Positions 46,201-64,000 of a DNA stretch of 64,000 nucleotides are shown piece after piece (within the stretch, counting starts at the first letter, position 1; each line of letters opens with the position of its first letter). The notes below the pieces were generated by a model. That model was not told the DNA's origin and did not search any database. It was given only the letters and a program-made list of their open reading frames with translations. The stretch covers positions 1 through 64,000 of the forward strand of contig JACNLQ010000052.1 of assembly GCA_014381415.1 (NCBI GenBank), read 5' to 3'. A program made the position numbers and the translations under genes. Source of the stretch: Fidelibacterota bacterium (GTDB lineage Bacteria; Fidelibacterota; Marinisomatia; SCGC-AAA003-L08; D37C17).

Positions 46201-46671
46201 ATATGGTAGGTTGTCCTCTAATTCTTCAGGGGGTTGAAACCCCTCAACTAATTTAGGTACTTCTATTTTTGGTTTACCTTTTTCTTTCTTGAGGGGATAA
46301 ACAGGAAGTACCATGGGCATATCTTCACCACCACTTGGCCATGTAGCCCCATTATCATATTCATCCTTCGCCCAAAAATAATATTGAATGAATCCTGATT
46401 CAACTACATCCAATGGGATTTCAACATTAAAAATAACTGGTTGATATGAAACGTTCATTTTCTGTTTACTAAATTCAGTGGCATCATTAAATCTATAATA
46501 AAGTGCTACTTCTTCAATATCATTTCTATCAGTGACAATAATTTCTATTTCTATGGGGGAGCGAGCAAAAAAATCTTCAATTGGTTCAAGGTAAACAAAA
46601 TTGGGGGGAAGACCGTCATCTTGACCAATCAAGATTCCGAAAGAAAGAAGACATGTAAGCCATCTAACCAT
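43216..46671 (-). CDS. Large putative outer-membrane beta-barrel protein with N-terminal Ig-like domains
   Basis: Signal peptide, Ig-like LEPIEDFFARSPIEIEIIVTD, alternating beta-strand C-terminal half ending AKLAIKFGF (terminal Phe). Confidence 0.6.
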   Translation of the reverse strand: MVRWLTCLLSFGILIGQDDGLPPNFVYLEPIEDFFARSPIEIEIIVTDRNDIEEVALYYRFNDATEFSKQKMNVSYQPVIFNVEIPLDVVESGFIQYYFWAKDEYDNGATWPSGGEDMPMVLPVYPLKKEKGKPKIEVPKLVEGFQPPEELEDNLPYYLEIGMLAPFFEVNQEEGVPIVVISVFDSEEIVDIENVKLLIDGNGVSSFNSPDMITYIPQDPFDPGYHIIRYEAKNNAGENLFKEFSFFMHEKIIDESEIKKTSWKDEIKFKGNLGWNTDYDPSPNRPIDTHKINSSVKFQLGEFKFNMSGLMNTHLIDADAREAATHRQPSSRVKFKMNSPYIDFHYGDNTPEFSEFSLKGTRVRGFSTKLKWGTWETSFVGGETKHWVSHGFNQISSWDSIPQYLPGDQVYSNGSIWEANTLNMDSLPDTLSGDWRVITESEYSSISNDICEAVNPVLYGLDPYDGDNTLAIWTGMECEEVVLHSRINMMTGEDGVEKGLIYLSVKDCLQQCKTPIIYEKGFPIRQLQGFRTSKDFFNHAKFGISAIRSWDVRNEDLIPYSIFHEGYTYEGNIAAAGDFSFHFNHDKTVLSGEYGLSMTIDQTYSDTLLLRTLSNIPENLSLYSYADWSGVDYCYQNECIDINGDGVIISAPEFVEGAIQNDSIWAEYTSANNRMNDFAKTLGFALNDDINGYAEGRGVSGLTGPELGRFIEGGFDSLYLLLKRPAFKVAFKTPIPLKFTDLSFQTEFNQAPLNYLSHGSSSIQTDVRNWKNKVAFKVLKNQVSFSFGFDNQIKSPWDPESVFDGEIKRSITDTKSGSIGLGFRNWPGLNYSIRLQERKDLSVQMVELFDSTFTSDSTFTIDSTLLLQKPIVGQKKLTTHTISPTYKINLGDIGISLNGNITFVNDLDQLSDTTGCYEILNSTKGEEWGGVSDTSICGTNENLYIFKGTNNYPFNNLGALTSTYTGALSFSFPIPLSLNLGWGMSANAPNDLRQSNTVISVFSTKIGYKFLDKKLNVTIGGNYVIGHKSGNEFWDSGEEFTQDWNQNESFDLRSYDEYDDLDNNNIWSDGDTLKVDYNENNEYDTYDADTFIDKVELDNTKLTLKCGMQYKIPEPNITIGLNLDYSKAVDYLKSEQDDPVFKAKLAIKFGF

Positions 46672-46696
46672 GAGTAATAATATCCTATTAATAGGC

Positions 46697-47860
46697 TTAT
46701 CTTGGTTTAACTACTAATTTAACTGTGACGGTACCATCTCCGTTATCAATAAGAATTGGATCGCCGTCTAATTCAAGTTCACCGGTTTCCAACATTTGTA
46801 AAACATCACTTACATTTCCGGATCCCATAGTGACAGAGGACTTTAATAAAACTTTATCCTGGATCATTTGGGTTAATTTAGCATTTCCCTTTTTACCTGC
46901 TATACTTGCCAATTTCCCTTGGGATGCACGTTTTTGGGCTTTTGTTTGATAATATTCAAATCCAATTATTTTTGATTCGGCATTTTCTGAGTTTACTATA
47001 ATTTCAGATTTTCCCTGACGGGATGATTTAACCTGAACGACGCCCCGACCCCCATTTATACTCACATCAACAGAACTTGACCAACTTGACCCATCCGCAG
47101 AAACCATCAATTCACTGGATTGTGAATTTACTGTTGCAGTTCCTGAGAATGAGTTTTTAAATGCTTTACTTCTTGCATTTAAAACTTGAATGCCTACTTT
47201 AATTATTTTTCCAGTTTGTTGTTTTCCTAGCTTATCTGGTTTTAATTTGAACGCAATTCCAGGGTCTGTTTTATTTTGCCAACTTGGTAAATCATCAGGA
47301 GTTAATTTTGAAACTGCACCACCATCCTTTGAGGACTCCATTGCCCCAGCCAAAATCGTACCTAATTCACCTGCAAATTCAACCTCTCCAGAAAGCACAA
47401 TTAGTGTTGTCTCACCCTTATCAATGTCATATTCCAAATCAAATTCGGTACCTTTTACTGATGCAACAGCTGTGGGAGTAGTAATGGTGAATTCCCCTCC
47501 GGCTCCTTGATCGGCAACATTACTCCATGCTTGCCCCTTGGCCATGTCCAAATTTGTTTTGAGGTCTTTGGCTGTCATCCTATAACTTGTTATTTTAACT
47601 TCAGTTTTTTGCTGAATTTTTATATTTGATCCATCCAGAAAAACAATAGCAACAAATACCCCTTCTTTTGTTTTTACCCACTCTCCATTTTTAATCATTT
47701 GACCTTTATAAGCAGGAATATATTTTCTGGAACCCACCGGCTTAACCATCACAAGACCCTTTAAAGTAGAAATAGCAGCAACTACTTTTGCATTTGCAGA
47801 AAATACAAAAGAACAGCAGATGAATACAAAAAATAACCTATTTATTAACTGTCTAGTCAT
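46697..47860 (-). CDS. FecR-domain exported protein
   Basis: Signal peptide; GQMIKNGEWVKTKEGVFVAIVFLDGSNIKIQQKTEVKI ... FTITTPTAVASVKGTEFDLEYD. Confidence 0.85.
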   Translation of the reverse strand: MTRQLINRLFFVFICCSFVFSANAKVVAAISTLKGLVMVKPVGSRKYIPAYKGQMIKNGEWVKTKEGVFVAIVFLDGSNIKIQQKTEVKITSYRMTAKDLKTNLDMAKGQAWSNVADQGAGGEFTITTPTAVASVKGTEFDLEYDIDKGETTLIVLSGEVEFAGELGTILAGAMESSKDGGAVSKLTPDDLPSWQNKTDPGIAFKLKPDKLGKQQTGKIIKVGIQVLNARSKAFKNSFSGTATVNSQSSELMVSADGSSWSSSVDVSINGGRGVVQVKSSRQGKSEIIVNSENAESKIIGFEYYQTKAQKRASQGKLASIAGKKGNAKLTQMIQDKVLLKSSVTMGSGNVSDVLQMLETGELELDGDPILIDNGDGTVTVKLVVKPR

Positions 47861-50800
47861 TATTCATCACCAAACATAAATTCAACTTCTATGGTTCCAG
47901 AAGGTGAACTAAATGAACCCACATTACTGGCATCACCAACTGGCGATCCATTTTCATCTTTTGCTATTACTTTCCAGTAAAGAGTAATTCCATTCCCAAG
48001 TGGAGGAGCTGCCTGAGGATATTGGTGAAATACCTCGGTTGCATCAGCTGAATAAATAATAGTGGAAATACTTTCATCAGATGCCAGTGTTAATGTATAT
48101 GCAGAGGCACCACCTACTGCCAACCAGGAGAAATAGGGCAACAAGCTTTCAGACTCCTCATTTAATGGACCTTCTAATTCAACTTTATTTTCACCCGACA
48201 AATCAAAACTGAATGGAGCACTAAAATCTCCTAATGCTGCTTCTTCACCCATGGCACGGACTCGCCAAAAATATGTCTCCCCATAATTTAATGGTTCAGA
48301 ACCAGATCCGGGATAGATCGTACTATTTTCAATAATTTCAGCTGAGGACCACAGAATTTCAGAAAAATCTTCAAGATTACTAACTTGAATTTCGTATTTC
48401 GCAGCACCCTCGATTACACCCCATTGAAATGTAGGTTTACTGGTTGTAGCAACTTCGCCATTGCCAGGAAGTTCTAATTCCACAATAAATGCCACACTGA
48501 TACTGAAACTACGTAGTGCCGACCATCCACCAATAGGGTTTCCCTCATTATTTAATGGACTAACCTGCCAATAATAGGGAGTATTAAAATTCAAGGGAGG
48601 TTCACTTGGATATTGAAAACTTGTCGAACCAATTTGAAATTTCCAACTTTCTGAAAAATCTGATTTATCTGAAAATCTGATTGAGAATGCTGATATTCCT
48701 TCTCCTGCCTCCCAAGAAAATGTGGGATTTGTTACTGATATTACTTCACCATCCTCCAAACCCAGAATTGTCAAACCTGCTGAAGCGGGTGTTCCAAAAC
48801 TACCTGTAATACTTATTATAACAGCTGTCTCGGTTGCTCCCTCAACTTGCCAAAAATAAGTTGTGGAATTATTTAGTCTGTTTTCTTCCGAAATTGTAGT
48901 CTCACTACCAGAAACAATATTATTAATCACTAAATTTTCAATTTCTGGGTCAGTACCTACACGAAGAGTGTAGGAAGTAGTTCCTAATAAAGAACCCCAT
49001 TTTAATACAGGATTTAAATTACTCACTTGCTCATCTCCAATGGGAGAGATAAGCGGAATATTATCTGTTGAAGGCATTAGAATCAATGCAGGCTTTGAGG
49101 GTCCGGCTAAACTTTCTCCGTTTTCATCTAAACCATCAACAATCCAGTAATAGCTATTCCCTGAGGTTAAAACACCCTCATCAACTTGAATAGAATTACC
49201 ATCTACCTGCTCGTCTATAATTAAACTGCTCATTTCTACATCCGATCCTACTTTTACCAAATATGCAGAAATTTTGTCATTAGCTTCCCATTGCAATGTT
49301 GGCGAAAGTGTTTCTGTACCCCCATCAGGATTTAATCCCAAAACAGGGTAAACTGATTTTGTTGAAAATGATTCTGTTGAAGAAATACTAAGCACAATTT
49401 CATTTTCACCGAGAGAGGCTACTTGCCAATAATAGGTACTTGCAAACTCTAATAAAATGGCTGATTCCGGATAGGCTATAGATGTGCTATTTGCATTTTC
49501 CTGCCACAATATATTTTCCATACCTCCATCTCTGGCAACCGATATTTGGTATCCTGTTGCCATCTCAATTCCACTCCAAGAAAATTCAGGAGTAAGGGGA
49601 GTCTCTGTGGAAAAAACATTTAATGTGGGAGCTGGGACGGATGGTGTTTGAAGGAATGAAATCTGACTTGAATTACCAAATAGATTTCCATCTTCATCTA
49701 ATCCTTGTACTCTCCAATAATACCCTTTATTAAATTCCAGTTCGTCCATATTCATTGGAGAAGAATTACCCTGAATAATATTATTTAATACCAATGCATT
49801 AAAATCTTCTACTAGACTTACTTCTAATCTATACTGGTTTGCAGCGGGAATTGATGCCTCCCAGCTGAAGGCATTACCCAATATTGGAGGTGTAATATTG
49901 GGAATAAAAAATCCAACAACAGAAGAAACGATACCATGTGTATCATCACCATCTAATCCTTGGGCAGTAACATAGTAAGATTTACCATATTGAAGAAGAG
50001 GACCATCACTGGGATATTCTGCAGTCAAAGAATTAGAAATAGACAACTGAACCCACTCAGCTGACATATCAGGTTCGGTAGAAATAGTGATCTGATAACC
50101 AGTTGCTCCTGTTATTTCATTAATAATCTCAAAAATTGGTTTTATACTGCCTTCTGGTAAATTTACTCCAATTGCTGTCTGGTCATTCGTTCCCGGCTTA
50201 CTTTCAACATTAATTACTTGTATTTCAGAAGCAATACCAATTATTTCACCATCTGCTGAATATGCAACAATCTGAGTATAATATGTATTGCCCCAATCCA
50301 CATATTCAGAAGAAAGCAAATATTGAGATTCACTGGAAGAAATGGGAAATTCCATAGCATTGGACATATCTTCATTCTGGGAAACCAGAATTAAATATTC
50401 TGTAGCTTCTTCTAATCCAGTTAAAATGGATATCAATATTTCTGATTCCGCACTATCTGTAATTTCACAACTGATTTCACATTGTTCTGTATTTTCTGGT
50501 TCTTCAGGAATGCTAAAGGGCATCATATTACTGGGATTCCCAAAATTTTCTCCATTTTTCATAGGCTGAATCTGTATATAATATGTTGTACCATATTGGA
50601 GGGTTTCTTTACCATCAGAATATTCATAAGGGAAATTGGTAATACCAGATATTTCTTCAATTATCGAACTGCCATCAGCATCACCATAAATAAAAATTGT
50701 ATATTCAATTCCTTCAGAGGTTTCTATGTTAATGATGGGAATTCTTACATCACTATTTGAAACGGATAATTCTTCCCCCAATTCTGGAAAATTTAATGTT

Positions 50801-52749
50801 GTGAATTGAGAAACTATTGAATATGATGACGGTAAACCATAATTATCATTAACATCTTTTGGAACTATTTTCCAGTAATATGATTTTTCATATTCAAGGG
50901 GATAATCATCGTCTACTGGGTAGTCTAAAGATTTACTACCGGTAATATTTACAATATACTTAGGATTTTCAACTTCAGAGTCTTCATCGTCTGAAATCCA
51001 AAATTCATACGATGGTACTGATAGAGGACCATCCCAAGTAAATTTTTGATTCAAAGGAATATTTGTTCCTCCATTGGAAGGTTCGGTTAAAATTATTGGC
51101 ATAATTCTAAAATTACCCAATACATTATAGTCTTCAATTTCCCCAAGTATATTACCACTTCCGTCAAACATTAATAATTTCCAATAATATACCATATTGG
51201 GGTAAAGTCCATTTTCCATATTTTGAGATGGATATTGCCATGGCAAGGATGTAATCTCTTCTTCTCTGTTATATATTTCTACCTGTTCCACATATTCATC
51301 ATTTTCATCACCAATTAACATTTCATAATATGAAATATTTGCTGGTGCTTCCACATTGAAATAAGGCCTGACGGATTCAACAATTTTTCCAATTTGGGGT
51401 TCAATTAATTCAATATTTTTAATAGTAAAGGTTTCGAATTCGCTCCATTTAGTGTTTCCGCCTAAAGAATGTATCCGAACCCGCCATTTATAACTTTTAC
51501 CAGGGATCAGTCCAGGGGCTTCAGCTGGGTATTGAAAAGGAGTAGAAATAAATTCAGCACCCCAACTTTCCCCAAAGTCTTCATCTTCTATAGGTGATAA
51601 TTGAAAATCAAAACCATCCTCGGCACACCCTATATTGTCCCACATAAATAAAGGAAGCACATCATCTCCAACTGGAGATATTAGTCCTTTGGGAATTTCA
51701 CCCCAGGTAAATTTCCAAACTACGGATTGAGCGGGTTCGGGCCAACCCCATAACCCTAAATTACCTGACCCAGTTTCAAAACCATCAATAACCTCCCGTG
51801 CATCCATACGCCATGCATAATCAAAGCCACATTGTAATGGATCCATACCCATTTCGGTCTTAAGAAAAGAATACCAAAAATTAATTTGATCAGAAAAACC
51901 CTTCTCGGTATACGGCCAACTTTCCATTTGAGGTAATTGATCCCAGTTAGAGTCAAAGTAAAAAACTGAATTGGGACCTATTTCGATAGCATCTTCAGGA
52001 GAATCAACTTCATCAGGAATAATTGCTGAAAGTAATAGTCTAAATTCAATTTGAACACCTTGCCTAAATCCAGGCGTATCCCATTGGAAATAAAAACTTT
52101 CCCCATCAGCATAGATCCAACCATCAGGAGGATTTAGAATTGAGAATTGATCTCCTACAGAAAATTCAACGTCCTCTTCGTCAGAAGCAATTTCATTATT
52201 TGGACTTTCAGGCTCGGTTGCACTAAGTTTTAATTTATATGTACCAGAGGGGAAGTATCCAGTTACATTTTCGATATTAGAAATAAATTCAGGATTTTCT
52301 TCTATATATTCTTCTAATGAACTTTCATTTAATTCTGGATCTAAATTGGAAAATATCTTCGGAACACCATTATTTTGGATTAATAAACTCTTTGTTCGAC
52401 CCTCCACTATGAGTTCATAATTCCCACTTATTTTTTGATACAATTGAAACTTGAGTTTATAGTAAACTGGTTCTGAACTCGTATTTAAAACTTCAACATG
52501 CCAAAGTTCTGCTACATTATTCCAACTATTCAGGGTAAACTGACTTGTATTAAGAAGAGTCAAATCAACGCTCAATTCCTGACTGAAATTGATGCTAAAC
52601 AAAATCCAAATTGGTAGTAAATAATTTAATATTTTCATATTATAATTCATATTTTTTTCCATTATAGGTCTCCCATCAATCATGAAAGCAGACATTTTCT
52701 TTAAGAAAGTACATAGATTTCGTCGGAAAGTTATTGATTTATAGCACAT
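47860..52749 (-). CDS. Giant exported protein with Fn3-like repeats; true start probably MKILNYLLPIWILFSINFSQ (~52638)
   Basis: About 13 copies of an xYYWxV-like block (e.g. STYYWQVASLGENE, NSYYWIVDGLDENGES, ETYFWRVRAMGEE) spaced ~100 aa. Confidence 0.8.
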   Translation of the reverse strand: MCYKSITFRRNLCTFLKKMSAFMIDGRPIMEKNMNYNMKILNYLLPIWILFSINFSQELSVDLTLLNTSQFTLNSWNNVAELWHVEVLNTSSEPVYYKLKFQLYQKISGNYELIVEGRTKSLLIQNNGVPKIFSNLDPELNESSLEEYIEENPEFISNIENVTGYFPSGTYKLKLSATEPESPNNEIASDEEDVEFSVGDQFSILNPPDGWIYADGESFYFQWDTPGFRQGVQIEFRLLLSAIIPDEVDSPEDAIEIGPNSVFYFDSNWDQLPQMESWPYTEKGFSDQINFWYSFLKTEMGMDPLQCGFDYAWRMDAREVIDGFETGSGNLGLWGWPEPAQSVVWKFTWGEIPKGLISPVGDDVLPLFMWDNIGCAEDGFDFQLSPIEDEDFGESWGAEFISTPFQYPAEAPGLIPGKSYKWRVRIHSLGGNTKWSEFETFTIKNIELIEPQIGKIVESVRPYFNVEAPANISYYEMLIGDENDEYVEQVEIYNREEEITSLPWQYPSQNMENGLYPNMVYYWKLLMFDGSGNILGEIEDYNVLGNFRIMPIILTEPSNGGTNIPLNQKFTWDGPLSVPSYEFWISDDEDSEVENPKYIVNITGSKSLDYPVDDDYPLEYEKSYYWKIVPKDVNDNYGLPSSYSIVSQFTTLNFPELGEELSVSNSDVRIPIINIETSEGIEYTIFIYGDADGSSIIEEISGITNFPYEYSDGKETLQYGTTYYIQIQPMKNGENFGNPSNMMPFSIPEEPENTEQCEISCEITDSAESEILISILTGLEEATEYLILVSQNEDMSNAMEFPISSSESQYLLSSEYVDWGNTYYTQIVAYSADGEIIGIASEIQVINVESKPGTNDQTAIGVNLPEGSIKPIFEIINEITGATGYQITISTEPDMSAEWVQLSISNSLTAEYPSDGPLLQYGKSYYVTAQGLDGDDTHGIVSSVVGFFIPNITPPILGNAFSWEASIPAANQYRLEVSLVEDFNALVLNNIIQGNSSPMNMDELEFNKGYYWRVQGLDEDGNLFGNSSQISFLQTPSVPAPTLNVFSTETPLTPEFSWSGIEMATGYQISVARDGGMENILWQENANSTSIAYPESAILLEFASTYYWQVASLGENEIVLSISSTESFSTKSVYPVLGLNPDGGTETLSPTLQWEANDKISAYLVKVGSDVEMSSLIIDEQVDGNSIQVDEGVLTSGNSYYWIVDGLDENGESLAGPSKPALILMPSTDNIPLISPIGDEQVSNLNPVLKWGSLLGTTSYTLRVGTDPEIENLVINNIVSGSETTISEENRLNNSTTYFWQVEGATETAVIISITGSFGTPASAGLTILGLEDGEVISVTNPTFSWEAGEGISAFSIRFSDKSDFSESWKFQIGSTSFQYPSEPPLNFNTPYYWQVSPLNNEGNPIGGWSALRSFSISVAFIVELELPGNGEVATTSKPTFQWGVIEGAAKYEIQVSNLEDFSEILWSSAEIIENSTIYPGSGSEPLNYGETYFWRVRAMGEEAALGDFSAPFSFDLSGENKVELEGPLNEESESLLPYFSWLAVGGASAYTLTLASDESISTIIYSADATEVFHQYPQAAPPLGNGITLYWKVIAKDENGSPVGDASNVGSFSSPSGTIEVEFMFGDE

Positions 52750-52781
52750 TTATCCAAAAAAAGATAACAGGATTAATTAAA

Positions 52782-53588
52782 TTAACTTGAAGCACTTTCA
52801 TACCGTATTAACCCTTTTTTCCAAATTATTCGAGTAAGTAGGAAAAAAAATATTGCTATAAAAAACTGCCATAATAAATACCGAACATCGGGACCATATA
52901 ACAAAGTTCGTGTGGGAATTGATGCAATTAGAATCATAGGTATCATTGAAAGAAGCATTTTTCTTAATAGCCCTGTATAAATTGAATCTGGACGAGTGGA
53001 GAATTTTAATATCTCATGACTTAGCCATCCTGACACAGAAAAATTCTTAAACCAAAAACAAGAGCTGGAAATAATAAAATCTACACCATACCATAGGATG
53101 GTTCCCATTAGAAAGGAGAAAACAAAGGCAATCACATTAATAAATCCAATAGGTGCAGAGTATGCTGATACTAACGTCGTTAACATTATTAGCAAAATTA
53201 CAACACTGACAAGTGCATACGATTTTACATAACGAAATGAAACCATAAACTGGGAGTTCATTGGTTTCAACAGAAAATAATCAAGGTCACCCCGAACCAT
53301 CCACCGGTTTAAATTGAATAAGTTCCCCGAAAAGAAAAACATATAAAATGTATCTGCCAAAAATGTTATTACTAAAAATATCATCACATCTTCCCGGGTG
53401 AAAACTCCAATGGCGTCCACATAGGAATATATAATAGAAAAAAAGAAAAATTGAATTCCATAATAAATTATATCAACCAATAACCCTCCAATAAAATTTG
53501 CTTTAAATTCCAAATCTCTGGTAAGACTATTATTGAAAAATGATATCCATAATGAAAAATATCTATGCACCATATCCTCCATATACAC
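52782..53588 (-). CDS. ABC-2 family transporter permease (COG3694-like)
   Basis: Multi-TM; NRWMVRGDLDYFLLKPMNSQFMVS; overlaps second permease. Confidence 0.8.
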   Translation of the reverse strand: MYMEDMVHRYFSLWISFFNNSLTRDLEFKANFIGGLLVDIIYYGIQFFFFSIIYSYVDAIGVFTREDVMIFLVITFLADTFYMFFFSGNLFNLNRWMVRGDLDYFLLKPMNSQFMVSFRYVKSYALVSVVILLIMLTTLVSAYSAPIGFINVIAFVFSFLMGTILWYGVDFIISSSCFWFKNFSVSGWLSHEILKFSTRPDSIYTGLLRKMLLSMIPMILIASIPTRTLLYGPDVRYLLWQFFIAIFFFLLTRIIWKKGLIRYESASS

Positions 53589-54372
53589 GTATTCCTGACT
53601 TATAAATAACTCTCCCTGCGAGAGTCATAACTATGCACCAAGACAATGCAATACCCATTTTGGGGAGCCAAAATTTAATGGGTAAATTAGCAGTTGCAAT
53701 ACTTACAGGGAAATCTACTAAAAATTGTAGGGGAGTCAAATTAATAATATTCCGGACTGAATCTGGAAATAATCGTAAAGGAATTATCTGACCAGATAAA
53801 ACAATATTAGAGATATTATAGGCTATTACCAATGCCCTCACTTCTCCAAACCAAAATGCAAAACAGACCATACAGAAATAAATAGCATAAGATAGATATA
53901 TTGAAATTAACAGTGCCATAATGAAACCTAAAACATGTAATAAAGTCGGAAAAGCCCACCCCGGAAGTAAAATTGGGAATAAAATTAAAACGGTGGAGTA
54001 TACAATATAGAAAAGAGAGTTATGCCCTATAAACATCATAAAATGGTAGGTGAAAAATGAAATAGGTCGAATAAGGTATTTATTCATTTCTCCCGTACGG
54101 ATTGAATCGATCATTTCCATAGATGTAGCCCAGGATGATTTTAATTGACCTACAATCATGCAGAGAAAAATATAAGCCATGAGACCGTTAAAAGTAAATC
54201 CACGAATTTCGGTTAATCCCTGAGCTTGGAATACCTGTTTCCATATTAAAAATTCAATAGCCAAACCGGAAAAGATTGCAAAGGTGCCTACTATGGCATT
54301 GGCTTTATATTCCAGAGCTTGTATCCATGTCATGCGAATGACGGAAAAATATTTATCAATCCATGCTTTCAC
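53563..54372 (-). CDS. ABC-2 family transporter permease (COG4587-like)
   Basis: Multi-TM; SIRTGEMNKYLIRPISFFTYHFMMFIG. Confidence 0.8.
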   Translation of the reverse strand: MKAWIDKYFSVIRMTWIQALEYKANAIVGTFAIFSGLAIEFLIWKQVFQAQGLTEIRGFTFNGLMAYIFLCMIVGQLKSSWATSMEMIDSIRTGEMNKYLIRPISFFTYHFMMFIGHNSLFYIVYSTVLILFPILLPGWAFPTLLHVLGFIMALLISIYLSYAIYFCMVCFAFWFGEVRALVIAYNISNIVLSGQIIPLRLFPDSVRNIINLTPLQFLVDFPVSIATANLPIKFWLPKMGIALSWCIVMTLAGRVIYKSGIRVYGGYGA

Positions 54373-55361
54373 TTTAGAAATTTTTCAGGATCGGTAAAAA
54401 ATGATCGCATGGTATCTTCAACTGGCAGGTCTTCCATCGTGATGGATGCAGGTACCCCTAACTTAAATAACTCTGATACTAATTTTGTCAACTCTTTATC
54501 AGGAAGTTCTGATTGAAGAATTGTATTATTTATATGAAAATTATACTTTTCTGATAATTTTTCAATTTTATTATAATCTGGTTTGTCATTAAACTCAAAC
54601 AGGAGTTTTCTTTTTGGGTTAACACGATTTACCAATTCTTCAAAATCACCATCATATAAGGATGCCCCTTTATGAATTACAAAAACACGCTTACATAAAG
54701 CCTGAATATCATGCATGTAATGACTTGTAAGCAGGAAGGTAGTTTTATATTTTTCATTATAATATTTAACAAATTCTCTGATTTTTAATTGTGAAATTAC
54801 ATCCAACCCAATTGTAGGCTCATCCAATAATACAATTTTGGGATTATGCAGCAGGGAAGCAATAATTTCCATTTTCATTCTTTCTCCCAAAGAGAGACGT
54901 CGAACCTGAACGTTCAATTTATCTCGCACTGATAACAAATCTACTAGTTCATCAAGGGTATTTTTATATTGACTTTGGGGGATTTCATATATTTTCTGAT
55001 TTAATAAAAATGATTCGGAAGCAGGGATATCCCACCAGAGTTGATTTTTTTGTCCCATCACCACTGATATTTGTTTGAGAAAATTTGATTTACGATTCCA
55101 AGGGGTAAATCCATTTATGTTTACTTCACCTGAAGTTGGATGGAGTAGGCCCACCAATAATTTTATGAGTGTGGTTTTCCCTGCACCATTTTCTCCCAAA
55201 ATGCCCAATATTTCTCCATCCTCAATTTGGACAGATATTTCTTTCAGGGCATGGAAAGTTTCATATTTTCGTTTGAAGAAAGATCGAAATGCACCTGAGA
55301 GTCCAGCTTCTCGTTTAAACATTTTAAATTGTTTAGAGAGTTCATTTACCTGTATTGGCAT
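54369..55361 (-). CDS. ABC transporter ATP-binding protein (COG4586-like)
   Basis: Walker A GILGENGAGKTTLIKLLVGLLHPTSGEV, signature RLSLGERMKMEIIASLLHNPKIVLLDEPTIGLD. Confidence 0.95.
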   Translation of the reverse strand: MPIQVNELSKQFKMFKREAGLSGAFRSFFKRKYETFHALKEISVQIEDGEILGILGENGAGKTTLIKLLVGLLHPTSGEVNINGFTPWNRKSNFLKQISVVMGQKNQLWWDIPASESFLLNQKIYEIPQSQYKNTLDELVDLLSVRDKLNVQVRRLSLGERMKMEIIASLLHNPKIVLLDEPTIGLDVISQLKIREFVKYYNEKYKTTFLLTSHYMHDIQALCKRVFVIHKGASLYDGDFEELVNRVNPKRKLLFEFNDKPDYNKIEKLSEKYNFHINNTILQSELPDKELTKLVSELFKLGVPASITMEDLPVEDTMRSFFTDPEKFLK

Positions 55362-55421: not shown

Positions 55422-55940
55422 TTAATACTTGATTGTATTACAATTTTCAATGGTTGCAGGAATTGACCCTCCATCACTATCTGATAAAACTAAATCCGTA
55501 AAACAGGCATCTGATAAATCCCCATCATACTTGATTTGTGTCAAAACACCACTTCCCGCAGGGATAAAATCACCTGAAAGACTAAACCCAATTACAGTAA
55601 TTGAACTGGAAGAAACCATAAATCCTGTTTCTTCAGCCGAACCACCAGAAGCACTGATTACCGTTATACCATTTACATCAAATTGAAATGCTGCAAAAGG
55701 AACTGAAACTTCATAATATATATTCCACAATCCTTCACAAGTTGCTCCGTCTCCTCCACATACACCACAGACATCATTTTCAAGAGGGATTGAGGAGCAA
55801 ATATCATCACATCCCATGCTTTCACCATTCAAACAATTTCCCGAGGAAGGTGTATAAATTTTACTTTCACTAATGGAATCACACCCAATAAATAATAACA
55901 ATGATACTGGTATGAAAATTAATTTTAGATTCAAAACCAT
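55422..55940 (-). CDS. Small Cys-containing lipoprotein with a possible cohesin-like beta domain
   Basis: Lipobox LLLFIGC; DVCGVCGGDGATC; LWNIYYEVSVPFAAFQFDVNGITVISASGGSAEETGFMVS. Confidence 0.6.
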   Translation of the reverse strand: MVLNLKLIFIPVSLLLFIGCDSISESKIYTPSSGNCLNGESMGCDDICSSIPLENDVCGVCGGDGATCEGLWNIYYEVSVPFAAFQFDVNGITVISASGGSAEETGFMVSSSSITVIGFSLSGDFIPAGSGVLTQIKYDGDLSDACFTDLVLSDSDGGSIPATIENCNTIKY

Positions 55941-55942
55941 AA

Positions 55943-58900
55943 TTATTTAATCAACATCATTTTTTGTTTTACGATAGAATTTGAGCTTTGTAAAATTACA
56001 AAATATATGCCAGAAGGATGATTTGTTCCATTCCAATTAACTGAATAATACCCTGGCAAAGTAAATGCATTTTTTAAGACATCAACTTTCTGTCCATTCA
56101 AATTATAAATATTTAATTGAACCATCGTAGGTTCAGAAACTTCAAAATCTATGGTAGCTTGAGGATTAAAGGGATTGGGATATATTCGGCTAATATCAAT
56201 TTTTTTAGGTAAAAGCAAATCATCATTAGCTAAAAAGCATTCATTTAAGCTACAAGCAATAGACCCATTTTCACATGAAAAATTAGGTGGGTGATTCCCT
56301 CCATAAATACCATCGCAATCCGGTTCACATTCATAACTTAAATCTGAAGAATCTTCTACACAATTACCACAATTATCCAGATAAGCTAAACCATCAACCG
56401 TTCCATTACAGTCTACACATTGGTTATCATTTTCACTATCTGCATCACATATACCACATAAATCCTCTATATAATTACCGCCCCAAACACCAATACAATC
56501 TAAGCTGCATGGTTCTAGTCCGGTTGCTCCTCCAATACATGTACCACAGTTATCATCAATAACTGCTTCACCCCCCCAATTACCATTACAATCTAAAATA
56601 CAATCATTTGAGGGGTCACTATCACAAATACCGCAATTATCTTCAATCGCATTTCCATTTGCTACATCTAAACAATCAGTTGGACATAGATTTACCCCTG
56701 AATTTCCACCAGAACAATCACCACATGCATCAATTTGTGCTTCTCCATTAACATCACCATAACAATCTGTGCAGGTAGAATTATTACCCCCACATACTCC
56801 GCATTCATCATATTTTATTTCTAAACCATAATTGTTCCAATTTCCATCACATCCCTGAATACAAGTTGAGGTTTCTCCCTCTAAAATACAATCCAAACAA
56901 TTATCAATAATGGCTCCGCCATTTGGCTCTTCATTACAATCAAAACATTGATTATTATTATTATTATCCGAATCACAAATACCACATTCATCTATAAAAG
57001 CATAGCCACCCCAATCGCCGTTGCAGTCCTGCTCGCAAGGTACTAATCCCGTTGAGCCTCCTGAACAGATTTGGCAATTGTCAATACTTGCTCCGCCTCC
57101 CCACTCATTATTACAATCAAATTCACAATCATTTGATAAATCATTATCACAGATACCACAATTATCTAAAACTGCTGTGCCTCCCCATTCATTGTTACAA
57201 TCCTTCTGACAATCATTTGATAAATCATTATCGCAGATACCACAATTATCTAAAACTGCTGTGCCTCCCCAATCTCCATTACAATCCTGGATACAATCAT
57301 TTGAAGAATTATTATCACAATGTCCGCAATTATCTAAATAGGCTGCCCCTCCCCATACATTATTACAATCCTGGACACAATCATTTGAGCTATCATTATC
57401 ACAAACACCGCATTCGTCCTCCACTGACCCTCCATTGCAAATACCATTACAGTCAAAACTTTGGCCTTCAGAGCATATTATATCACAAAGTTCTCCGTCT
57501 CCATTTGTGTCACCATCATTTTCATTTCCTCCACAAATTCCACATTCATCATTGCTTAAGCTCCCCCCCCATACCCCTGAGCAATCCTGTACACATTCAT
57601 CACTTACAGTATGAATACAATTAAGGCAATTATCCAAGTAAGCCATGCCTCCCCAATCTCCATTACAATCCTGGATACAATCATTTGAAGAATTATTATC
57701 ACAATGTCCGCAATTATCTAAATAGGCTGCCCCTCCCCATACATTATTACAATCCTGGACACAATCATTTGATTGATCATAATCGCAATTACCACAATTA
57801 TCTTCAATACCTGTACCCCCACAAATTCCAAAACAGTCATCAATTAATGTTCCGTCACATATGCCTCCACAATCTAAATCATTTGAAAAACAATCTATTA
57901 ATTGATCATCGTTATTATCTACCCAACCATTTGGCTGCATACCCAGACAAAATGTACCCTCGACAGAGCTTCCTAAACCATCACCATCAATATCACGATA
58001 ATAAGTTAAAGTTTCACCTGTATCAGCACATTCACCCATCTTTATCCAGATATTTGTTTCATTATTATCCCCTATCAGATCAGATTGAGATAAAGAAATA
58101 GCACTCATTTCTTGCATGTTATAATTGACTTCACCTACATAAATGAACATATTAAAATTATCTGAATTGCTCATTAATTTTCCAAGATCCCAACTGAGAT
58201 TAATGTCAATATCAGAGGATAATCCCCCGCCAGTACTGCCTTTAATACCCCAACTGGTCAATTCACGGAAACTATGCTGGTTGCGAAAATCAGATGAAAA
58301 TTCGTATTCCAATTCATTTGAATTGCCATTTATATCCGTTTGCCCAAACCAATCCAAATGGTAGAAATTTATATTGGTGTATTCACCTGAAACAGGGTTG
58401 GGATAATCATATTCATCCTCTCCAAATTTCCAACCATCATTGCATCCATCACACATTCCCAATGTAATTACATGATCGGCTCCAATTTCTGAATTATCCT
58501 GACCAGTAATCGTTAAATTATCTAATATAATTTCAATAGAGCCGTCAATAGCAGGAATTTGCCAGTCGCTATTTATTTGTGCATCTAAAAATGTAAGCGA
58601 CGAATATTCTCCGAGATTTCCAATAGACTTAAATTTTATTTGTGCAACCATTCCGTTGCCACTAAATACAGTTGCTAAATTGCTAACGATTGCTAAATTT
58701 ATTATTCCAGGTTCAATTAAATTGTATGTAAAAGTATAACCATCATCCAAAATTCCTAATGGATTTTCAAATATTTCCTCAGCATTTACTATATTCTCAT
58801 CATATTCAATTTTTAATTGGATGGATTCTAAATTTGACACATCATAAATAAAAATGGGGATATTAAGCGTTGTATCCTGATTCATCATTTTATGAGGAAT

Positions 58901-58972
58901 TTCAATAGATTGGCTTAAAATAATTGTGGGGAAAATTATTCCCAATAATATTAGATTTTGGAAATACTTCAT
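55943..58972 (-). CDS. Secreted Cys-rich repeat protein: N-terminal cohesin-like domain, many DCNNxWGG repeats, T9SS-type C-terminal domain
   Basis: IYDVSNLESIQLKIEYDENIV; repeated CGICDNDLSNDCQKDCNNEWGGTAVLDN; C-terminal YPNPFNPQATIDFEVSE...GYYSVNWNGTNHPSGIYFVIL. Confidence 0.8.
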   Translation of the reverse strand: MKYFQNLILLGIIFPTIILSQSIEIPHKMMNQDTTLNIPIFIYDVSNLESIQLKIEYDENIVNAEEIFENPLGILDDGYTFTYNLIEPGIINLAIVSNLATVFSGNGMVAQIKFKSIGNLGEYSSLTFLDAQINSDWQIPAIDGSIEIILDNLTITGQDNSEIGADHVITLGMCDGCNDGWKFGEDEYDYPNPVSGEYTNINFYHLDWFGQTDINGNSNELEYEFSSDFRNQHSFRELTSWGIKGSTGGGLSSDIDINLSWDLGKLMSNSDNFNMFIYVGEVNYNMQEMSAISLSQSDLIGDNNETNIWIKMGECADTGETLTYYRDIDGDGLGSSVEGTFCLGMQPNGWVDNNDDQLIDCFSNDLDCGGICDGTLIDDCFGICGGTGIEDNCGNCDYDQSNDCVQDCNNVWGGAAYLDNCGHCDNNSSNDCIQDCNGDWGGMAYLDNCLNCIHTVSDECVQDCSGVWGGSLSNDECGICGGNENDGDTNGDGELCDIICSEGQSFDCNGICNGGSVEDECGVCDNDSSNDCVQDCNNVWGGAAYLDNCGHCDNNSSNDCIQDCNGDWGGTAVLDNCGICDNDLSNDCQKDCNNEWGGTAVLDNCGICDNDLSNDCEFDCNNEWGGGASIDNCQICSGGSTGLVPCEQDCNGDWGGYAFIDECGICDSDNNNNNQCFDCNEEPNGGAIIDNCLDCILEGETSTCIQGCDGNWNNYGLEIKYDECGVCGGNNSTCTDCYGDVNGEAQIDACGDCSGGNSGVNLCPTDCLDVANGNAIEDNCGICDSDPSNDCILDCNGNWGGEAVIDDNCGTCIGGATGLEPCSLDCIGVWGGNYIEDLCGICDADSENDNQCVDCNGTVDGLAYLDNCGNCVEDSSDLSYECEPDCDGIYGGNHPPNFSCENGSIACSLNECFLANDDLLLPKKIDISRIYPNPFNPQATIDFEVSEPTMVQLNIYNLNGQKVDVLKNAFTLPGYYSVNWNGTNHPSGIYFVILQSSNSIVKQKMMLIK
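57117..57772 (-). repeat. In-gene direct repeats: a 127-bp perfect repeat (57262-57388 = 57646-57772) and tandem 84-bp (28-aa) units at ~57131 and 57215
   Basis: Read directly: tgcctccccaatctccattacaatcctggatacaatcatttgaagaattattatcacaatgtccgcaattatctaaataggctgcccctccccatacattattacaatcctggacacaatcatttga present twice, 384 bp apart. Confidence 0.9.
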
Positions 58973-58985
58973 TTTATATTTTCTA

Positions 58986-61094
58986 CTATTTTAGTAAAAC
59001 TAACTTTCTTACAGATACAAATTCATCTGCATCCATTTTGTAGAAATAAATTCCTGAGGGAACAGAAATACCATTTTGATTTGTACCATTCCACATAATT
59101 TCATAATTGCCTGGTTGGTGGGAACTTTGAACAATTGTCTTAATAATCTGACCGCTGATATTTACAATATTAATTGTAACAAAATCATACTGTGGAACAC
59201 TATAATGGATATAAGTTGTTGGGTTAAAAGGATTTGGATAATTTTGGTTTAGGTGATAATCCTTTGGGATTAACTGATATTTATTATTAGATAAATCACA
59301 ATCTACAATTCCTGTATTACCACCAACACATTCCCCACACTCATCAATAAATGCATCACCATTAAATACTCCATAGCAATCACCAAAATAAATGACTTGT
59401 GAAGTATAGTTTTGCTCTTGCATAACATGTTCATTTATCTGAACTTTTTTATAATTTACATAAGTGCTGGCACCATTATCCCCTACATTAATAAATTGTA
59501 GAAATAACATTTTACCACCATTACCTTCATATAATTCATTGGTTGTGTACATAACTGCTGTAAAGATTGTGCTGTCAATAATTGTACTATCAATATCAAT
59601 GTATAATTCATTGGTATTATTTAATTCACCATTTAGTTCTCCCTCTAAGTTAAATTCTTCTGAAGTTAAACTCCAATTATTTAAGAATAGGTCAGATGAG
59701 TTATAATCAATATCTAAAATTATACCCTCAAGTGGATTTGGTAAATTCTGCATGTGTAATGCAATGTAAATAGTATCTAATTCTTTTATTATAAAATCAT
59801 CATCTTCCAATCCGTTGGAATTATAAATATTAAAACTTGAATTAAAACAATCTATATCATTGGAATCTGCTATACATTGCTCACAGTTATCTTCATATGC
59901 AGTGCCACCCCATTCTCCAGTGCAATCCTGCTGACAAGGATATCTTTCAGTTGCTCCACCTACGCAAACATTACTACAATTTGGGTCTTTAAATGCACAT
60001 CCTTCAATAAATGAAAGCTCGGTTGGGCAATCTTCAATTGGAGGACAGTCACCATTGCAATCAAATTCACTATCCGCCTCCGTGCAAGTGCAATTATCAC
60101 TATCAGTATCGTTTCCACCGCATACATCACAATCATCATAAACAGCATCACCTCCACATTCACCAGTGCAATCTATCTCATATTCACAACTGCCATCATC
60201 TTCTCGAGCATTTGGATCATAATTACAGGCTAACTCATCAGTACATCCTGAAGGTACAACAACTAAAATTTCACCACCTTCCCAATTTGAATCACCCATG
60301 AGTTTTTCATTAATAGTAAACTCATTGATAGTTAATTGGGTAGTTATATCAGCATTAATATCCATCGCTTCAATTACAATATTGAAAATATTTTCTTGCC
60401 CATCAGGTGAAAAAAGTTCATGGTCAGTTTCAGGGTTAGGATGAGGTTCAAAATATAATGTGAAATTAACATTAGTAAAATTGCTCGCCTCAATAAATGA
60501 ATAATAAGAGATTACATATCCGATATTATATAAACCAATGCCAACAAGAGAAAATTCCTTAATATTTATAATACTATTATCAAATTGAAATTCGATATCT
60601 ATTGATTGTAATGTATCTAAATTTGTAATGAATACCTTAATCGTATCTGTAGAATTAGATTCCATATAACCTCCAAAAGATAAATCAATTTTTAGACAAT
60701 CAGAAATTCCCGTATCCCCTCCAACGCATCCATTATTATTATCACTATCTATACATAAAGAATTAATATAAGCAGCTCCGTTAGGAATCCCATGGCAATC
60801 AGAACAAGATGAGTTATCTCCTCCACATTCACCACAATCATCAAATTGTTTATCAGTAAAATCTGGGTTAGTCAGCCACTCATTCTCAAATATTACTGGA
60901 CATTCACCATTACAATCATTATATAAGCATTCTCCTTCAATTATGGCAAACTGGTCATAATTACAGGCTGGTGATCCCCAGTTAGGACTCCATTGCTGAT
61001 AGCCATCATCCATACATCCCGTCGTCTGCCCAAATCCAATAGAAATGATTAGTACAACCCAAATATTGTTTATTAATTGATGAAATATTTTCAT
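58986..61094 (-). CDS. Secreted Cys-rich protein with two cohesin-like segments and T9SS-type C-terminal domain
   Basis: GCTDELACNYDPNAREDDGSCEYEIDCTGECGG; cohesin-like IEFQFDNSIINIKEFSL and ILDIDYNSSDLFLNNWSL; C-terminal NYPNPFNPTTYIHYSVPQ...GNYEIMWNGTNQNGISVPSGIYFYKM. Confidence 0.8.
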   Translation of the reverse strand: MKIFHQLINNIWVVLIISIGFGQTTGCMDDGYQQWSPNWGSPACNYDQFAIIEGECLYNDCNGECPVIFENEWLTNPDFTDKQFDDCGECGGDNSSCSDCHGIPNGAAYINSLCIDSDNNNGCVGGDTGISDCLKIDLSFGGYMESNSTDTIKVFITNLDTLQSIDIEFQFDNSIINIKEFSLVGIGLYNIGYVISYYSFIEASNFTNVNFTLYFEPHPNPETDHELFSPDGQENIFNIVIEAMDINADITTQLTINEFTINEKLMGDSNWEGGEILVVVPSGCTDELACNYDPNAREDDGSCEYEIDCTGECGGDAVYDDCDVCGGNDTDSDNCTCTEADSEFDCNGDCPPIEDCPTELSFIEGCAFKDPNCSNVCVGGATERYPCQQDCTGEWGGTAYEDNCEQCIADSNDIDCFNSSFNIYNSNGLEDDDFIIKELDTIYIALHMQNLPNPLEGIILDIDYNSSDLFLNNWSLTSEEFNLEGELNGELNNTNELYIDIDSTIIDSTIFTAVMYTTNELYEGNGGKMLFLQFINVGDNGASTYVNYKKVQINEHVMQEQNYTSQVIYFGDCYGVFNGDAFIDECGECVGGNTGIVDCDLSNNKYQLIPKDYHLNQNYPNPFNPTTYIHYSVPQYDFVTINIVNISGQIIKTIVQSSHQPGNYEIMWNGTNQNGISVPSGIYFYKMDADEFVSVRKLVLLK

Positions 61095-61104
61095 TGTATT
61101 TCCA

Positions 61105-64000
61105 TCATTTTATTAATAACATTGTTTTCTGCAAGGTTGTTCCATTGGATATTAAACGGTAAAAAAAGATTCCACTTGGATATGCAGTGGCATCCCATAC
61201 TATTTCATGTATCCCCGCTTCTTTATATCCAGAAAATAGATGATCTATCAGTTGGCCCTGTAAATTATATACTTCCATAGATACATTACCTCCTAGTGGA
61301 ATAGACCATTTAATGGTGGTTTCGGGATTAAATGGATTTGGATAATTTTGATGTAAACTTAATTCTTCGGGAATCAAACGATTAATTATACTTACTCCAT
61401 CTGTAAATTCTGTGTTACCCGATCCAATGATACTAATTCCGCCAATAGCGGGTTCATCATTAACCTGAAATTTCTTCAACCATATTTTGCCATTTTTATT
61501 TTTATTATACCAGTTAAAACTAACTTCTCCAATGATTCCCTCAACCATTTGAGGTTTTTCTATTGCCCAAGTTACAGTTTTTATGGTTCCATCTCTACTT
61601 AACAAATTAGAAACAGATTTATATTTTTCAATTCTTATATTTGATGAATTAAATGCAATTGAAAGAGGACTAAATACATCCTCATTATATTCAATTTCTA
61701 AATCCATGCCTTCTATAAAAGTTGGCTCAGCAATAATTATTGGAAAGGTAATAACTGGCACATAATCAATAGTAATATCAGTAAATTGAATTTGTTTATT
61801 ATTGTATCGAGACAATTGATCGTGACAATAATTTCCATTTACATCTCCAAGCCTATAAGCAGATATAAACCGTAAAGTATCATCGAACACTAAAGGCTGA
61901 TATTCAATGCTATATTGCCCATTTTGGTTCAAGAGTTCTGCATGAACATTTGGTAAAGTTTGTTGGTTTAAAGGTTTAAAAATCCAATGAGTTTTTATCT
62001 CATTAAAATTATCAATTAAACCTACTGAATATTGAGCAACCAAACTGGCATCATAACCACTTACAGTGCCATCTAAAGAAACATCTGCTGCAATAAATTG
62101 ATCTGGATTAAAAGGCACCTCCCCTGTCACATGTCGTGCAATTCCGGATATGTCGGTTCCAGATATATAATCACCATTGCAATCATTAACAGTATCTTTT
62201 GAAAATGATAAATTATAATTCCCTTCTGTTAATGATTCGAATATAAAATGTCCAGATATTTTTGAAGTGTCAATATAGGATGTATCTGCAGATACCCCAT
62301 CATAATTTTTATCTAATTTTAAAATAACATTTGGTACTTCAAAGGGATCATCTCCTGAATAATAGGTGATATTTCCAAAAATTTCATAATCTGTTTGTAA
62401 AATGACCAACTCTGCACTCACCGTGTCTTCCGGGATAACACTGATATAGTTTTCCGGGGCCCCCCCTTTAACTTTTGCTATTGAAATAGTTAAAGTTGTA
62501 TCTGAAACACCCTGCATCCCTAATAAGTTAAAATCTAAATAAGTAATAACTCCTGCTATTCTTGCAGATAAAAGGGACATATTAACTTTTATATTCCCAT
62601 TTTGATCAGCAACTATATTTTCATCGCTCAAACCAGGCACTACTGTTCCCAAAAAGGTCCCATAATCATATGATACAATGCCTGAACTATTATCATAATT
62701 CAATGTAAACTCAATCTCATTTATTTCTGCTAATGAATCATTTTTAAAATAAACAGGCACACTTACTGTTTCATTGGAATCTCCAACTACAAATGCTGGC
62801 ATTGACAATGAAACATAATGGCAGGTATTTGAATTTATATTTGCATTTTCATGGTAATTTATAGCGCTGAAACAATTTTCTCCAGGGATACATTCCGATG
62901 GGTGGTTACTTATAAATGCATCATCAAAAAAAGCACCCGTGGGACAGTCACTATTTTCATTTCCACTGCAATGCCCCTTATCCACACAACCGTATATCCC
63001 ATAGTCACTTGCATCTATTGTAAATGTAAATTTGTCAGAATAAATTATATCAATAGTATCAGAAAATGTTTTGGTTAATTCAACTGTCCAACTAAAATCA
63101 GCAATCTCTCTATCTTTGCCCATTGCCTCAATGAGTAAATCGATTGGTAAAATGGAAATTTCCGGGGCAGTATTGGATTCCCAAGATAAATTTGGAATAT
63201 TTTCCCAAATTGGATCAATAATAGGTGAACCATTTTTTTCTATACTTCTTTTATCTATTATTATTTCATAATTAAGATCAGGGGTATCGATAAATGTACC
63301 AAACCAGGAGAATTCCAATGGAACACCATAATTGTTGTTTTGATAATCCCAAATACCATTTTGATTTCTATCATGATATAGCTCGTCTTCTTCACCATCT
63401 CCACACTCATCACAAATACCATTTTCATTTTCATCATCAAATGGTTCTGCTCTATAAACATCATTATAATCACCATAAATATTATGTGTACTACCAGTAT
63501 CAATTTCAATATCAGGAAACCATTCATCTGAATATCGGATATTGTTCAGTCTAAATGAATTTTCTTCTCTTGGAGATCCAAAGTTTTGTATTTCGGTGTA
63601 TTCCTCATAAAGCCAAAGACTGTTTTCAGTTTTGGGGCTGAGAGACCAGTTTTCAGATAATGAATTATCTAGTTCCGGTGAATGAAGCCGTAATGAATGT
63701 CCCCTGCTATTTTCACCTACTGGCCATCCTTCTGCAATATCGTAGTCAATTCTATCTTCTTCAATATTATTATTATTTTTTAAAATAATAGATCCTTTAT
63801 CTATAAAATCCCATAATTCTGCAGTATCATCGAATGGTAAAATAAGCCACTCGGCAATTATATCACTAAGATAGCCATTATAAAAATTGCAGCCGGTGTT
63901 TGAAAATACACACCACTTTGACGAAATTAAAAAATAACCAAAGGGGTCAATTTCCAAATTATTAATATCAACATAATTATTTGTATTAAAAAAAGTTTCA
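61105..64000 (-). CDS. Secreted protein with cohesin-like, carboxypeptidase-regulatory-like, dockerin-like and T9SS-type C-terminal domains; 5' end beyond window
   Basis: Frame stays open past the called TTG start at 63957 to the window edge (ETFFNTNNYVDINNLEIDPFG); dockerin-like DCNGDYISGTDISGIARHVTG...ADVSLDGTVSGYDASLVAQYSVG; C-terminal NYPNPFNPETTIKWSIPLGG. Confidence 0.8.
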   Translation of the reverse strand, partial: ETFFNTNNYVDINNLEIDPFGYFLISSKWCVFSNTGCNFYNGYLSDIIAEWLILPFDDTAELWDFIDKGSIILKNNNNIEEDRIDYDIAEGWPVGENSRGHSLRLHSPELDNSLSENWSLSPKTENSLWLYEEYTEIQNFGSPREENSFRLNNIRYSDEWFPDIEIDTGSTHNIYGDYNDVYRAEPFDDENENGICDECGDGEEDELYHDRNQNGIWDYQNNNYGVPLEFSWFGTFIDTPDLNYEIIIDKRSIEKNGSPIIDPIWENIPNLSWESNTAPEISILPIDLLIEAMGKDREIADFSWTVELTKTFSDTIDIIYSDKFTFTIDASDYGIYGCVDKGHCSGNENSDCPTGAFFDDAFISNHPSECIPGENCFSAINYHENANINSNTCHYVSLSMPAFVVGDSNETVSVPVYFKNDSLAEINEIEFTLNYDNSSGIVSYDYGTFLGTVVPGLSDENIVADQNGNIKVNMSLLSARIAGVITYLDFNLLGMQGVSDTTLTISIAKVKGGAPENYISVIPEDTVSAELVILQTDYEIFGNITYYSGDDPFEVPNVILKLDKNYDGVSADTSYIDTSKISGHFIFESLTEGNYNLSFSKDTVNDCNGDYISGTDISGIARHVTGEVPFNPDQFIAADVSLDGTVSGYDASLVAQYSVGLIDNFNEIKTHWIFKPLNQQTLPNVHAELLNQNGQYSIEYQPLVFDDTLRFISAYRLGDVNGNYCHDQLSRYNNKQIQFTDITIDYVPVITFPIIIAEPTFIEGMDLEIEYNEDVFSPLSIAFNSSNIRIEKYKSVSNLLSRDGTIKTVTWAIEKPQMVEGIIGEVSFNWYNKNKNGKIWLKKFQVNDEPAIGGISIIGSGNTEFTDGVSIINRLIPEELSLHQNYPNPFNPETTIKWSIPLGGNVSMEVYNLQGQLIDHLFSGYKEAGIHEIVWDATAYPSGIFFYRLISNGTTLQKTMLLIK

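Follow-up and report, generated by a model that had tools for sequence, protein, structure and literature searches.

What do four Cys-rich surface proteins at the end of a Fidelibacterota contig do, and do the cohesin-like and dockerin-like modules they carry bind one another or partners elsewhere? The window, by which we mean the whole 64,000-nucleotide stretch analysed, lies on contig C48 of a 1.9-Mb genome that is 88% complete. The initial annotation described a run of four minus-strand genes here, and the run is present as four consecutive open reading frames (ORFs) with intergenic gaps of 2-13 bases. Each protein is referred to by the first coordinate of its ORF, and A1 is a cohesin profile described below.

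61105..63999 (-), T9SS surface protein: cohesin 1, CnaB-like domain, dockerin, cohesin-like 2, T9SS tail
62395..62814 (-), cohesin domain 1 of 61105 (PF00963, A1)
62029..62184 (-), dockerin of 61105 (PF00404)
61450..61797 (-), cohesin-like domain 2 of 61105
61120..61344 (-), T9SS tail of 61105 (TIGR04183)
58986..61094 (-), Cys/Asp/Asn-rich T9SS protein with two candidate cohesin-like domains (weak scores)
about 60249-60698 and 59379-59843 (-), the candidate cohesin-like domains of 58986 (weak scores only)
58998..59240 (-), T9SS tail of 58986 (TIGR04183)
55943..58972 (-), T9SS surface protein: N-terminal cohesin, long Cys-rich repeat region, T9SS tail
58529..58909 (-), cohesin domain of 55943 (PF00963, A1, AlphaFold)
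55955..56185 (-), T9SS tail of 55943 (TIGR04183)
55422..55940 (-), putative lipoprotein (Cys20) with one C-terminal cohesin-like domain
55455..55724 (-), cohesin-like domain of 55422 (GFSL type)

Checking the sequence past 64000 placed the contig end at 64019, so the 61105 ORF is open at its 5′ end. Its orthologues in two genomes of the same genus, located after tig-clpP-clpX (gene names read from sequence), start with a hydrophobic leader and are also cut by contig ends. Since the G001 orthologue has an LTD domain (PF00932) near its N-terminus, the missing part of 61105 would probably be of LTD type as well. The T9SS C-terminal domains reported for three of the four genes all score above the TIGR04183 cut-off (55943, 58986 and 61105); Pfam detects the tails of 55943 and 61105, and NCBIfam that of 58986 as well. 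SprA is above cut-off in the genome, indicating that the T9SS translocon is present, and a PorU-like protein scores below its equivalog cut-off. The proposal that 55422 is a lipoprotein is plausible, because its signal peptide, as read from the sequence, ends in LFIGC (Cys20). Further genes lie downstream of the cluster in the same direction, at positions 43216-55361. Three of these ORFs look from their sequence like an ABC exporter; the others encode an Ig/FN3-type protein of 1629 aa, a protein with a FecR domain and a product of 1151 aa that Pfam does not match.

To evaluate the cohesins we used A1, a profile of 27 cohesin-like domains from relatives and the window that includes the 55943 domain and domain 1 of 61105 and leaves out the 55422 domain. 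Searched against the PDB, A1 recovered some 40 solved cohesins (best E=2e-14), and shuffled or reversed ORFs of the genome reached a maximum of 10.8 bits. The profile proved too diverse as a scanning query. Viral-contig scans matched mainly T9SS tails. Cohesin-like domains had been proposed in all four genes, and by PF00963 and/or A1 this holds for three of the domains. The 55943 cohesin (27.4 bits; A1 E=4.6e-24) and domain 1 of 61105 (26.6 bits; A1 E=8e-14) exceed the curated PF00963 cut-off of 24.1 bits. The 55422 domain matches A1 with E=1.3e-9 even though it is outside the model, with an hhalign probability of 98%; a Pfam search of 55422 gave no match, and a PDB search with a 55422-type profile found no cohesin. 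The domain is of a GFSL type, of which a protein on contig C64 with similar Cys-rich linkers has six or more copies. Domain 2 of 61105 stands only through its homologues, reaching 9 bits alone while the same-position domain scores 28, 39 and 85 bits in homologues, with the G003 copy above the PF00963 cut-off. The pair proposed in 58986 reached only weak scores (domain E-values 0.02 and 2.5; hhalign probability 19%) and stays a candidate. That protein does contain a Cys module, GCTDELACNYDPNAREDDGSC, which is common to the scaffolds and follows the pattern GCTDxxACNYDPxAxxDDGSC.

The initial annotation had left the fold to structure prediction, and the AlphaFold model of the 55943 domain (pLDDT 81) has cohesin topology. 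All 50 of the 50 matches listed among solved structures were cohesins, the best with Z 11.6 and an rmsd of 3.1 over 122 residues, and C. acetobutylicum CohA2 was at the top. Besides the 55943 domain, the alignment contained 15 rows taken from other loci and the window, and the model is not independent of it, because those rows had been picked as cohesin candidates. A model of the cohesin-CnaB-dockerin-cohesin stretch of 61105, made with 7 distant homologues, reached a pLDDT of 41; it has dockerin-like helices and beta domains at the expected places, and Foldseek ranks cohesins first, but at this low confidence no domain contacts could be read from it.

One idea is that the cluster is self-contained, with the 61105 dockerin binding the cohesins of 55422, 55943 and 58986. 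The dockerin itself is supported by PF00404 (23.8 bits against a curated cut-off of 22.9), but the proposed duplicated calcium-binding segment amounts to one canonical loop rather than two 12-residue loops: only loop 2 (DVSLDGTVSGYD) is canonical, while loop 1 (DCNGDYISGTD) is one residue short and lacks acidic ligands in homologues. It is also the outlier of the genome, with 30% identity to the dockerin consensus where the next lowest has 48%. The same dockerin-cohesin-T9SS tandem is found in records from Zixibacteria, KSB1, Gemmatimonadota, Ignavibacteriae, Bacteroidetes and Balneola, and from Lentimicrobiaceae. Judged by its sequence, the 61105 dockerin is a different subtype that is widespread in FCB phyla. 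Homologues of 61105 in genomes G003, G006 and G007 keep the tandem, and beside them no orthologue of 55422, 55943 or 58986 was recognised, only shared repeats, Cys modules and tails. The genes of the window are tightly packed and both partners occur in the one 61105 chain, as in the related tandems of the first six groups named, and both points speak for a self-contained cluster. However, the single canonical calcium loop and the tandems that stand apart from the other three genes make this reading very unlikely. Because the 61105 dockerin is an outlier belonging to a different, widespread tandem, there is no obvious reason to pair it with the cohesins next to it, and the pairing put forward in the initial annotation is not supported.

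Looking beyond the window, we found 67 PF00404 matches in the genome. In 47 of 66 dockerin ORFs the dockerin is no more than 8 residues from the C-terminal end, and none of these 47 has a T9SS tail; in 11 others, 61105 included, a T9SS tail follows the dockerin. A signal-like N-terminus was present by a crude rule in 32 of the 42 C-terminal-dockerin proteins whose 5′ end is present, and several of the remaining ten start with a hydrophobic leader, judged by eye. The dockerin loop residues are nearly uniform across unrelated enzymes (D1, N3, D5, N9, I/V10, L11, D12, N18 and L21). Between the dockerin and the T9SS tail, ten proteins (e.g., L070:6252-9605 on C58, L068 and L053) have a conserved domain of ~105-130 aa (GYIGGIQMTLxH...FTYSGDFEI...IVANS), from which the eleventh dockerin-T9SS protein, 61105, differs. 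We suspected a mini-cohesin here, but profile comparison gave only 22%, and we do not claim it as one.

The cargo was assigned with Pfam on 50 dockerin ORFs. Peptidases comprise M14 (two), M6, C10 (two), S8 (two) and C25 (three), along with three trypsin-like ORFs, one of them under cut-off. Other enzymes are two lipases/esterases, endonuclease I, Exo_endo_phos and arylsulfotransferases, and further cargo includes peptidyl-arginine deiminase, GSDH, a Cu monooxygenase, and CotH/LTD, sortilin-like and FG-GAP proteins. Internal dockerins occur in a MauG peroxidase and a PNGase-F-like enzyme. The initial annotation saw no glycoside hydrolase in the cluster, and the same is true among the 50 dockerin ORFs scanned with Pfam across this 88%-complete genome. 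By its cargo, then, the system is not a cellulosome. One dockerin protein on C9 (L047:523-4488) shows a Hint-like match (intein/Hedgehog-type) after the dockerin, close to the C-terminal end.

On the cohesin side, A1 identified 42 cohesin-like domains in this genome (E up to 0.1), so that the ratio of cohesins to dockerins is below 1 even by A1. The candidate receptors are as follows.

C1, 1753 aa: multi-cohesin, T9SS-tailed
C62, 3493 aa: multi-cohesin, T9SS-tailed
C64, 1372 aa: at least six cohesins, no tail found
C38 (271 aa), C14 (235 aa), C23 (248 aa), C4 (887 aa) and window 55943: single-cohesin T9SS proteins
55422 and C2 (269 aa): lipoprotein-like cohesin proteins
C58, C19 and others: cohesin and dockerin within one chain

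Multi-cohesin scaffolds are thus present in the genome and, as giants, in relatives, and none is within the window itself. No carbohydrate-binding module was found in four multi-cohesin proteins or in the window proteins. The trypsin-like protein on C19 (L059:4114-6195) has a cohesin immediately ahead of the dockerin at its C-terminus and is possibly a chain-forming enzyme.

We then compared 41 genomes of the order, in families f1-f5. Dockerins number 7-109 per genome in f1, f2, f3 and f5 and 0-2 in f4, and A1 cohesin counts track them (median 14.5 against 6 in f4). The two counts correlate across the 41 genomes (Spearman 0.74) and without f4 (0.60), but not significantly inside f1 (0.33, p 0.13). 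This co-variation is a correlation in few lineages and not proof of pairing. Among the matches listed, giant multi-cohesin ORFs (about 1760-3970 aa) occur only outside f4, and the Cys module found in 58986 is absent from the ten f4 genomes searched. Comparing f4 with the other four families is a natural way to ask how the system was gained or lost.

From these domains, architectures and co-variation we infer how the cohesin-dockerin system would bind, where it would sit and what it would do. We propose, with a probability of roughly 65% and on the basis of sequence comparison, that the cluster encodes cohesin-bearing surface proteins and that these are sockets in a non-cellulosomal cohesin-dockerin system, spread over the genome, for docking exoenzymes. 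T9SS would fix the cohesin proteins to the outer face of the cell, with lipoprotein sorting serving 55422, and the Cys/Asp/Asn-rich repeats would act as spacers. The signal-peptide exoenzymes seem to carry a C-terminal dockerin where related enzymes elsewhere have a T9SS tail, and the cohesins would catch them by calcium-dependent binding. Peptidases, nucleases, esterases and sulfotransferases would thereby be kept at the surface for digestion of protein-rich matter. The 61105 dockerin more likely pairs with a cohesin of matching subtype, either in cis or on another copy of the protein, and may link surface proteins into chains. Regarding the two assemblies first suggested for this locus, a cellulosome-like, non-cellulolytic one is well supported at the scale of the genome, by its dockerins, cohesin-like domains, multi-cohesin T9SS proteins and lack of glycoside hydrolases among the 50 dockerin ORFs scanned, but not inside the cluster; as for a purely adhesive or structural scaffold, the enzymatic cargo points instead to a surface for enzyme docking.

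A competing explanation, which we consider unlikely, is that the cohesin-like domains are generic adhesive beta-sandwiches and the Cys-rich T9SS proteins a structural or adhesive coat, with dockerins serving otherwise, for example in calcium-dependent stabilisation of enzyme C-termini. Family f4 retains cohesin-like domains with almost no dockerins, and therefore the fold alone is no proof of pairing. The window cohesins are moreover divergent, with Pfam scores barely above cut-off, and repeats rather than a binding domain make up most of the window protein length. Generic sandwiches would not, however, account well for structure matches that are cohesins throughout the list, for dockerin and cohesin counts that vary together, for giants confined, among the matches listed, to dockerin-rich families, or for dockerin loops that stay uniform over unrelated enzymes. 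Exoenzyme docking thus remains our preferred reading, and it may extend further. Elsewhere, T9SS is the usual export route of C25, C10 and peptidyl-arginine deiminase. We tentatively suggest, as a possibility we hold below even odds, that the C-terminal dockerin is a general surface-retention tag replacing the T9SS tail on these enzymes, with T9SS-exported or lipoprotein cohesins, those of the window included, as receptors. Such two-step sorting would separate export from display.

If exoenzyme docking is correct, uncultivated bacteria with small genomes apply the cellulosome principle to digestion of protein and nucleic acid at large scale (67 dockerins in 1.9 Mb) and couple it to type IX secretion. 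Small recombinant domains would allow a cheap test of dockerin-enzyme retention on a Gram-negative-type surface, and the system may yield new orthogonal cohesin-dockerin pairs.

We found no literature on dockerins with Marinimicrobia or SAR406. The nearest precedents are Candidatus Stygibacter (Cloacimonadota), which has a cellulosome-like complex (PMC8542988), and the 'planctosome' of Nemodlikiaceae, freshwater Planctomycetes (PMC6461901). Stygibacter likewise has enzymes with a signal peptide and a C-terminal dockerin, C25 and S8 peptidases among them, and its large multi-cohesin scaffold ends in a domain of T9SS type; unlike the present genome, where none were seen, it has enzymes of families GH18 and GH57 and a scaffold bearing CBM2/CBM3 (PMC8542988). 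Here there are far more dockerins, and cohesins also occur on a lipoprotein and, singly, on small T9SS anchors. The planctosome resembles our system in that its cohesin-dockerin complex, which includes LTD domains and M14 peptidases, is proposed to be non-cellulolytic and to degrade peptides, but it is simple, with few components and no T9SS described (PMC6461901). In ANME archaea, too, dockerin and multi-cohesin proteins are numerous and do not serve cellulose degradation, although theirs are archaeal and S-layer linked, and the cargo is mainly substrate-binding proteins (PMC9012536). A profile of the small signal peptide-cohesin-T9SS anchors best matched the non-cellulosomal cohesin of Clostridium perfringens NagJ (2jh2, E=4.5e-4), which differs in that it belongs to a glycoside hydrolase of a Gram-positive bacterium, with no T9SS. 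The clostridial cellulosome shares the cohesin fold, C-terminal dockerins on secreted enzymes and multi-cohesin scaffolds; in contrast, we found no cellulases and no CBM here, and anchoring is by T9SS or lipoprotein, not SLH or sortase. What is new is the scale, the absence of glycoside hydrolases, the use of three kinds of anchor for cohesins, and a C-terminal tag that is uniform and stands where T9SS tails would be.
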